Assembly (NCBI RefSeq): GCF_004210375.1
Contig: NC_134834.1
Location: 161,343,290-161,407,289 of the forward strand
Source of the DNA: Tachypleus tridentatus
Lineage: Eukaryota > Arthropoda > Merostomata > Xiphosura > Limulidae
Direction: 5' to 3'
DNA length: 64,000 nucleotides
Position numbers and translations under genes: made by a program
Part shown: one piece after another, positions 19,989 through 34,395 of the stretch
How the letters are laid out: each line of letters starts with the position of its first letter
Numbering within the stretch: position 1 is the stretch's first letter
Notes under the pieces: generated by a model
The model's input: only the letters and a program-made list of their open reading frames with translations
Told to the model about the DNA's origin: nothing
The model's database searches: none

Positions 19989-20722
19989 ATGGATTTCCTT
20001 TCTTTTCGCATTAGTCGTGCAATTTTAATTTACTATCAGTCGATGGAAACATCACTGCCACTATCAAAGTTATATCTTCTTTTTGTTTATGGTATTTTAG
20101 TGGTGTTGGCTTTAATTTATTTAAAGCTTAGTAGATCAATCTACATAATATATTTGCCAAAGACTACTAAGTTCATGATATTTTCCCTGTGCGCTATAAT
20201 TTCGCTAATTGTGGGCACACTTGTCTTTGAAATCGTGTTCCTCACATATATACAAAAAATAACGCACGAAGAAAATAACCATGGCTGGAAATTAAAAAGC
20301 TATCTCATCTCAATTATGAACAAAAAATACCCTGATTTTGGGTAAATCATGAGACTTGACAATATTGGTTTTTTAACTTTTATAAATAGTTTGATTATGT
20401 CATGTCAGAAGTATTTCACTGTGAAAGATATATGGAATTAGCTGTATCTTTAAACATGTTATGCAATCAATAATTAACAAAACATCTTTTGTGTTTTTAC
20501 AAATTATTGTATATTTACATCCATGTAATTGTAGTTGCTGATTATTTAACACATTTAAATCTGCTTTCTATTGTCAGTTATCCTGATTATAGAAGATGTC
20601 ATAAAGGGTGCTCAGAGGAAGGTTCGTATTTACATAACCTGAGGAACCTTATAATCTACTATGCCGGATTTACAGTATTCATAAGTCTTGGGTTATGTCT
20701 GCTACTCCCTCAGGTGTTAAAG
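19989..20722 (+). CDS. Small multi-span membrane protein module, copy 1 (two exons)
   Basis: Exon 1 (19989-20341) starts at ATG in the context GAAAATGG and encodes 117 residues; it splices in phase 2 (GG/GTAAAT) to exon 2 (20578-20722), giving 166 residues ending in phase 0 at AAG/GTGAGA. Hydrophobic spans lie at about residues 28-47, 62-88 and 142-161. The stretch between spans 2 and 3 has RCHKGC just before the last helix, reminiscent of a tetraspanin extracellular loop and fourth span, but a CCG motif and the first span are missing. I do not recognise the family. The same exons occur almost unchanged at 59896-60747 and decayed at 43519-43860. The next coding exon downstream in this strand is PAK-type, in a compatible phase, so this may be the N-terminus of that kinase. 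Confidence 0.6.
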
Positions 20723-20892
20723 GTGAGATTTTAACTCAAATCTTGTAATTATTATATTTACTGGAAATCTCTCAGCCAATTATACAATACAGTAAAAATC
20801 GTCATTAGAACAACATTGAATGATTATCTGTTTAAATACTTATTGATGTTTGGACACTAACTAAATGTTAGAATTATGTTTTACCAACAGTG

Positions 20893-33900: not shown

Positions 33901-34395
33901 TTTGTACTATACAAAAGTATTAGAATAAAGTTAAAAATAAGATTTCAGGCTCCATGAAAAGAACAATGGAAGTTGAAACCTCAGGTATATTAATCTTTAT
34001 ATTTAGTAGAACATAAATATTTCCTGTCATCTCATCATAAACACCCCCCACCCCATACTATCACACTGCCCTCTCCCATGCTTCATAGTAGGTGCTGTGT
34101 GGTGAGATAAGTATCTTTCACCTTTCTTCTGCCTGACATACAACACACATTTTGAATGAAAAATTTCAAACTTGAACTCATAAAATGGAAAGAATGACAG
34201 AGTATTCCTTTGTCCTAACATTTTTACACAGTACTGTTTACAGAGACTAATTTAACATAATGTGTATGATGTAGAATAATTACTTTTATTAAACAGATGT
34301 TTTTTATTATTTTTTTCACACAGCATCCTTTCATTGAACTGGCAGATGGGTGTAATCTTTACGATCTTTTAGAATGTCAACCAGAGATGCAGTAA
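21801..34395 (+). CDS. PAK-type (STE20 group) serine/threonine protein kinase, catalytic-domain exons
   Basis: Seven exons (21801-21934, 27454-27640, 28563-28655, 29557-29656, 31066-31262, 32167-32304, 34324-34395) splice in frame and encode a complete kinase domain ending in TAA. The order is [17 protein letters not shown], glycine loop, VAVK lysine, GDELW hinge region, HRDIKSSN catalytic loop, DFG, APE and a C-terminal helix. PAKs phosphorylate cytoskeletal and signalling proteins downstream of Rac/Cdc42. The key catalytic residues (K, D of HRD, D of DFG) are present, so it should be active. No CRIB/p21-binding domain was seen upstream in the window. The activation loop differs from canonical PAKs. 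The N-terminus may be the membrane module at 19989. A DIRS-like fossil and long AT-rich introns separate the exons. Confidence 0.88.
21935..22989. other. Kinase intron, shared with copy 3
   Basis: AT-rich and closely matched at 62363-63400. No exon is visible. The conservation reflects recent duplication. Confidence 0.5.
22990..26000 (+). mobile_element. Decayed DIRS-like (tyrosine-recombinase) retroelement in a kinase intron
   Basis: In-order coding remnants resemble a DIRS-type element: an RNase H-like region around 24660-24720 ([20 protein letters not shown]) and a recombinase-like region around 25540-25620 ([14 protein letters not shown]). The element is broken many times over and looks old. 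Exact ends are unclear. It lies between the first and second recognisable kinase exons, and the same insertion is at 63400-64000, so it predates that duplication. Family assignment is from motif resemblance only. Confidence 0.5.
26001..27453. other. Kinase intron
   Basis: Beyond possible trailing parts of the DIRS-like fossil up to about 26300, nothing is recognisable. Confidence 0.4.
27454..27640 (+). CDS. PAK-type kinase exon: N-lobe with catalytic lysine
   Basis: It reads [20 protein letters not shown] and ends [12 protein letters not shown]. The Lys of VAVK is the ATP-binding lysine and GASGT completes the glycine-rich loop. [19 protein letters not shown] is strongly PAK-like. Acceptor TTTCAG at 27453, donor GTAAGT at 27641, exit phase 0. 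Confidence 0.9.
28563..28655 (+). CDS. PAK-type kinase exon: hinge and helix D
   Basis: It reads [17 protein letters not shown] and ends VVCKE. MEYMEGGxLTDIV is the STE20/PAK hinge; canonical PAKs have GGSLTDVV, so a Cys replaces Ser. Phase 0 at both ends, borders TTTAG/G and GTATGT. Confidence 0.9.
28890..29055. repeat. GC-richer island in a kinase intron, possible repeat
   Basis: About 165 bases (GCAGCGGTGGACTTGGCCCT to CTAGTCTGCCTCTGTCAC) stand out in base composition from the AT-rich intron. It looks like an interspersed repeat, but no second copy is in the window. Confidence 0.3.
29557..29656 (+). CDS. PAK-type kinase exon: catalytic loop HRDIKSSN
   Basis: It reads [20 protein letters not shown], then [13 protein letters not shown]. 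The HRD aspartate and the metal-binding Asn are present; the residue before Asn is Ser where PAKs usually have Asp. Borders TTTAG/G and G/GTCAGT. Confidence 0.9.
29660..31060. other. Kinase intron with two units of the 83-bp repeat type
   Basis: The strings at 30137-30290 and 30415-30530 (CACAATAGACAAGTTAAGAG and relatives) match the repeats at 277-452 and 892. The rest is AT-rich without signal. Confidence 0.4.
31066..31262 (+). CDS. PAK-type kinase exon: DFG, activation loop and APE
   Basis: It reads [20 protein letters not shown], then GTRQWMAPE and [18 protein letters not shown], ending DENSDM. DFG and APE are intact. The activation-loop stretch KRSTMVGTPYWMAPE of canonical PAKs is here [15 protein letters not shown], so the regulatory threonine position holds Ser and PY is replaced by RQ. 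This suggests a divergent paralog. Confidence 0.9.
31263..34323. other. Kinase introns before and after exon 32167-32304
   Basis: AT-rich, no further exon or element seen. Confidence 0.4.
32167..32304 (+). CDS. PAK-type kinase exon: C-lobe helices
   Basis: It reads [20 protein letters not shown], then [20 protein letters not shown] and ELLK. This matches the PAK segment LIATNGTPEL...FLNRCLEMDVEKR; the R of KR is the conserved C-lobe arginine. Relative to canonical PAKs it looks about one residue shorter at the junction with the previous exon. Confidence 0.88.
34324..34395 (+). CDS. PAK-type kinase terminal exon
   Basis: It reads [20 protein letters not shown], then EMQ and TAA. HPF closes kinase subdomain XI. 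The tail is shorter than in canonical PAKs, which continue about ten residues with LTPLIxAAKEA. Acceptor CACACAG at 34323. Polyadenylation signals follow about 155 bases downstream. Confidence 0.85.
   Translation, partial: HPFIELADGCNLYDLLECQPEMQ

Follow-up and report, generated by a model that had tools for sequence, protein, structure and literature searches.

PAKs are textbook effectors of GTPases, and the TGF-beta receptors are among the transmembrane Ser/Thr receptor kinases of animals. Experimentally, PAK1 has reportedly been targeted to the membrane by means of engineered constructs, in work that Daniels (1998) and Lu and Mayer (1999) are said to have carried out. According to passages of two reviews, PAK1 in its inactive state forms a trans-inhibited dimer that the N-terminal region maintains, and being recruited to the plasma membrane is a critical step towards its activation (PMC10017488; PMC11852631).

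We analysed a stretch of 64,000 nucleotides from the horseshoe crab Tachypleus tridentatus (contig NC_134834.1, positions 161,343,290 to 161,407,289, forward strand), hereafter the window. It probably holds one member of a family in which PAK catalytic exons are fused to a membrane module; this is our best overall explanation. Among the literature matches listed, nothing was found on a transmembrane PAK. Neither 'kinase' nor 'pak' occurs in the covered part of the main text of one horseshoe crab genome paper (PMC7210998). In the covered part of another (PMC7011531) 'pak' occurs twice, once as 'Pakistan', and the kinase passages concern Tak1 and Janus kinase, while the covered part of a paper on arthropod fusion genes (PMC13389597) is free of 'kinase'.

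Exons and domains of the window gene

Copy 1 consists of nine exons (Table 1). As originally predicted, all of their GT/AG borders are present and the joined exons give 472 codons followed by TAA. The predicted phase match was also recovered: E2 has a phase 0 end, which the start of E3 matches provided that the shifted acceptor is used. The E1-E3 arrangement is repeated in copy 2. However, E8 of copy 2, located outside the window (L052), carries a +1 insertion leading to a frameshift. Thus, of the proposal that two well-preserved copies have their parts adjoining on one strand, the arrangement stands but the preservation of copy 2 does not.

Table 1. Coordinates of exons, acceptors and intron homology in the window
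Feature	Position	Strand	Description
E1 copy 1	19989..20341	+	membrane module, two hydrophobic segments; ATG open frame, donor GG/GTAAAT
E2 copy 1	20578..20722	+	membrane module: CxxxC loop, third hydrophobic segment; acceptor CAG, donor AAG/GTGAGA, phase 0 end
3' part of intron 2, copy 1	21547..21800	+	homologous to the canonical PAK intron before E3; left edge is the likely fusion breakpoint
Ancestral E3 acceptor copy 1	21769..21777	+	CTTTAACAG; common to canonical PAK L041
E3 copy 1	21801..21934	+	PAK pre-kinase linker exon, from shifted acceptor AAATAG/GAACTG; homologous to canonical PAK E3
E4 copy 1	27454..27640	+	kinase N lobe, VAVK lysine
E5 copy 1	28563..28655	+	kinase hinge region
E6 copy 1	29557..29656	+	catalytic loop HRDIKSSN
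E7 copy 1	31066..31262	+	activation segment DFG to APE, and onward
E8 copy 1	32167..32304	+	kinase C lobe
E9 copy 1	34324..34395	+	last kinase exon, HPF, stop TAA
E1 copy 2	59896..60248	+	same E1-E3 structure as copy 1
E2 copy 2	60603..60747	+	
Ancestral E3 acceptor copy 2	62196..62204	+	
E3 copy 2	62229..62362	+	kinase exons beyond the window

Pfam recognised a full protein kinase domain at residues 202-453 of the copy 1 protein. Against PDB chains, the kinase scored about 367-384 bits with PAK1-3 and about 265-274 bits with PAK4-7, the best match being PAK3 (6fd3, 384 bits). By sequence, the kinase part is closest to group I PAK. Translation and alignment with PAK3 showed that the catalytic residues are kept, namely the VAVK lysine, HRD, DFG and APE.

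The module spans 166 residues over two exons and shows three Kyte-Doolittle peaks of membrane length in copy 1 (W1), those of E1 lying near residues 34-46 and 70-82. It is thus predicted to be an integral membrane part with about three hydrophobic segments, whose N terminus would face outside given a cytosolic kinase. A Pfam search of the 166 residues gave no family above cut-off, with weak rows only (best E 0.028), and a PDB search gave no match at E up to 1. A tetraspanin identity was rejected on these two results, and membership of a known family on these and on viral contigs, also without match. Six candidate places for stand-alone module copies were examined and contained degenerate frames only.

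Other features were observed in the window. A third, degraded copy of E1 lies on the + strand at 43596-43781 (65% identity over residues 26-87). A 37-base tandem repeat array with strong AT skew occupies 44071-52453, with about 174 copies in 44965-51397 at 71% matches. Repeats resembling tRNA-derived SINEs, placed approximately by eye, were seen at 19490-19750, 20890-21150, 60910-61180 and 61330-61590.

The gene family and its intron homology

The 2.17 Gb genome was searched with the module, the linker exon E3 and the kinase as queries, hit counts being lower bounds. It also contains at least 19 matches to Pfam Coagulin, a family not known outside horseshoe crabs. After clustering of the rows used, 78 of the 107 loci of the linker exon had a module exon no more than 5 kb upstream, in all 78 cases on the same strand and in 0 on the opposite one. 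Among the 29 linker loci lacking a module are the canonical PAK genes of C7 and C13. Viewed from the module side (130 loci, rows used), a linker lay downstream within 5 kb at 78 and none did at 52, and at a single one of the 130 the linker was on the wrong side. Module rows for the count of 78 in 107 were the 150 hits of the first search and 70 rows from a second list of 154 matches, several places of which repeat the first search and were merged on clustering. Linker rows were 46 of 88, 56 of 91 and 5 of 62 from three E3 searches; rows omitted from the list of 91 were either places already taken from the list of 88 or seven rows with E of at least 0.0079.

Another count drew on all 150 module hits, on 46 of the 88 hits for the linker (E at most 0.0036) and on 146 of the 147 for the kinase. 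Here, 47 of 112 module loci were followed on the same strand, within 15 kb, by linker or kinase exons, whereas 200 random placements gave 0.1 such loci on average and never more than 2. Such exons were found downstream on the opposite strand at 3 of these 112 loci and upstream on the same strand at 11, as neighbouring copies would give.

The phases recur as well. With donors chosen by pattern and independently of phase, the end of E2 was in phase 0 for 21 of 22 module entries, the remaining one (L038) being without E1. Two pairs of entries each cover a single place, so that 19 distinct places are represented, and E1 is truncated in L033. One conserved E3 acceptor with a phase 0 start was found in L034, L036-L039 and the canonical PAK L041, and E3 of L035 and L040 likewise starts in phase 0. 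E3 is open to its end in L034, L035, L036 and L037 and frameshifted in L027, L030, L038 and L039.

A diverged C9 paralogue, whose exon borders were chosen by hand, is built of the same nine exons and keeps an open frame of 515 aa from the ancestral acceptor. It is 64% identical to copy 1 in the module and 63% in the kinase, with an omega of 0.26 in the former and of 0.30 in E4-E9. A C11 gene of a third subfamily keeps this order over E1-E8; its HRD and DFG/APE exons are intact, a GC donor follows E4, and no E9 was found. Two further peculiarities were observed. In C4/C9-type genes (L034, L035, L036), repetition of the pre-kinase stretch within the E3 linker has lengthened it, and the C9-type gene holds two E6 copies (L058, 2623-2725 and 2981-3080), the first lacking the segment with the normal donor.

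Two canonical PAK genes of the same genome (L041, L050) have E3 in common with the family and CRIB hits upstream. Searching the genome for the CRIB/p21-binding domain (PF00786) gave at least 10 hits. None among the genome matches listed comes closer than 0.96 Mb to one of the 112 module loci, in line with the earlier remark that no CRIB sequence lies near.

The canonical partner of the intron homology of copy 1 (Table 1) is the C7 PAK gene, with CRIB upstream. Of 11 copies, 7 share one canonical base as the start of the homology (W1, W2, L027, L035, L036, L037, L038). The start lies further along in L030, L034 and L039, and in L040 it falls inside the exon. The simplest reading of these sequences would be a single breakpoint of fusion, situated close to 21547 in copy 1; part of the common start would also be mimicked by an insertion at this position of the canonical gene. 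According to the scheme that we consider most likely, one exon-shuffling event would have joined the two-exon membrane module inside an intron, upstream of group I PAK catalytic exons, the module would have replaced the CRIB/autoinhibitory half of PAK, and the combination would then have multiplied into a multigene family. The observed basis consists of gene order and strand, the phases, the open frames, the kinase motifs and an intron homology whose start is common to several copies, and a fusion at the level of the family is highly probable.

The E3 acceptor and the state of the window subfamily

The window copies differ at the start of E3. Splicing at the ancestral acceptor (CTTTAACAG in both copies) would cause a frameshift and a stop after 9 codons in copy 1 (21777), and a TAG after 7 codons in copy 2 (62204). 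The 472-codon frame of copy 1 therefore requires the acceptor inside the in-frame TAG (AAATAG). The old acceptor is kept in 8 of 8 window-type copies (W1, W2, L042, L043, L046, L047, L044, L045) with a stop or frameshift behind it: a TAG in copy 2, L042, L043 and L046, and a TAA then a TAG in L044 and L045. L047 and L048 are also broken behind this site, which the more decayed L048 retains and L049 has lost. Most likely, the E3 acceptor of the window subfamily has moved 23-24 bases downstream, a shift that we propose because a stop or frameshift now interrupts the old frame and yet the kinase is still constrained. The first-AG rule would favour the old, upstream site. Scored with a matrix built from 16 acceptors of the family, both sites are weak, the old having -2.0 vs -3.1 for the shifted in copy 1, -2.0 vs -4.8 in copy 2 and -2.4 vs -3.4 in C6a. 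The predicted architecture, with the CRIB region replaced by the module, is well supported for the family through order, strand, phase, intron homology and the open C9 paralogue, whereas the exact junction of the window copy is unproven because it requires this shift.

Constraint was estimated from pairs of window-type copies. Between W1 and C6a, the kinase (E3-E8) has accumulated 21 synonymous and 22 non-synonymous changes, and as few non-synonymous changes arose in only 1 or 3 of 2000 neutral simulations, run with two assumed transition fractions (0.5 and 0.65). The corresponding figures were 19 or 34 of 2000 for W1 vs C19 and 407 or 531 of 2000 for W1 vs C10c, the last pair being uninformative. 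The module, with 7 synonymous and 13 non-synonymous changes between W1 and C6a (436 or 596 of 2000), was indistinguishable from neutral. A synonymous skew was thus computed for the kinase within the window subfamily, and for both module and kinase between subfamilies. In all six window-type copies compared, the frame read from the old acceptor is stopped or shifted, and the skew in the subfamily kinases favours their continued translation.

These data also bear on the strongest competing explanation, according to which the fusion is real in C9/C4/C12-type genes but lost in the window subfamily. There the old acceptor would be used and an early stop reached after the module, transcripts would be degraded or encode a module-only protein, and the kinase exons would be decaying. 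Retention of the old acceptor with a stop or frameshift behind it speaks for such a loss, as do the E8 frameshift of copy 2, the E9 stop of the inverted C10 copy and a kinase dN between W1 and C6a (0.033) only moderately under the intron divergence (0.053). On the other hand, seven kinase exons are open with intact borders in both copy 1 and the C10:161.22 Mb copy, and the kinase is skewed to synonymous changes when W1 is compared with C6a and with C19, although all these copies carry the stop or frameshift. We consider such a loss rather unlikely. A fusion in copy 1 specifically is somewhat favoured, whose transcripts would join E2 to E3, and copy 1 as a working member of the family is plausible, if unproven.

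According to another explanation, two separate adjoining genes were duplicated together: a small membrane protein whose frame would end in a retained intron, and a kinase that would have an unseen first exon or an internal start. A stop does occur three codons past the E2 donor in the window copies, L034-L037 and L039, but it is absent from L038 and L040, whereas the phase 0 donor recurs in nearly all entries. The lack of CRIB hits near module loci and the phase 0 start of E3 in the types examined also argue against two genes, which we regard as very improbable. The polyadenylation signal AATAAA occurs in intron 2 once per window copy, for shuffled means of 0.8 and 1.2, a count that is uninformative. 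Finally, a chance one-in-three match of phase is ruled out by the recurring order at 78 of the 107 linker loci, which is more than a phase coincidence because the order recurs on the same strand.

Comparison with known kinases

In the fused protein that we favour, the kinase would sit in the cytosol directly after the last membrane span. Membrane tethering would take over the role of recruitment by Rac/Cdc42, and the autoinhibitory segment would be absent. The likeliest reading is that a built-in membrane part, in a protein free of the CRIB/autoinhibitory region, would by analogy with PAK1 bypass Rac/Cdc42; the 'constitutively membrane-located' kinase of the original prediction would be its counterpart, with topology, location and activity as predicted here. 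More tentatively, horseshoe crabs might possess dozens of multi-span, receptor-like PAK genes free of Rac/Cdc42, derived from one exon shuffling and divided into several subfamilies, in which the orphan module would act as a sensor or dimerising unit; this is possible rather than probable. If true, the family would be a natural setting in which to ask whether tethering to the membrane can stand in for control by Rac/Cdc42, and a case of exon shuffling with the donor intron still recognisable.

With group I PAK (PAK1-3), the window gene has in common the kinase domain and the pre-kinase linker, as well as the E3 exon start and flanking intron sequence of CRIB-bearing PAK genes of the same genome. 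Unlike these, it has no nearby CRIB/autoinhibitory region, the membrane module being there instead, and a 13-residue stretch of its activation segment differs from the STMVGTPYWMAPE that PAK3 has there. Like the membrane-targeted PAK1 constructs, it would work by forced membrane location of a PAK kinase; those were engineered, whereas the window gene is genomic and has integral membrane segments. Similarly to TGF-beta receptors, an integral membrane part would be followed by a cytosolic Ser/Thr kinase, although these belong to another kinase family and are single-span, in contrast to the multi-span window gene.
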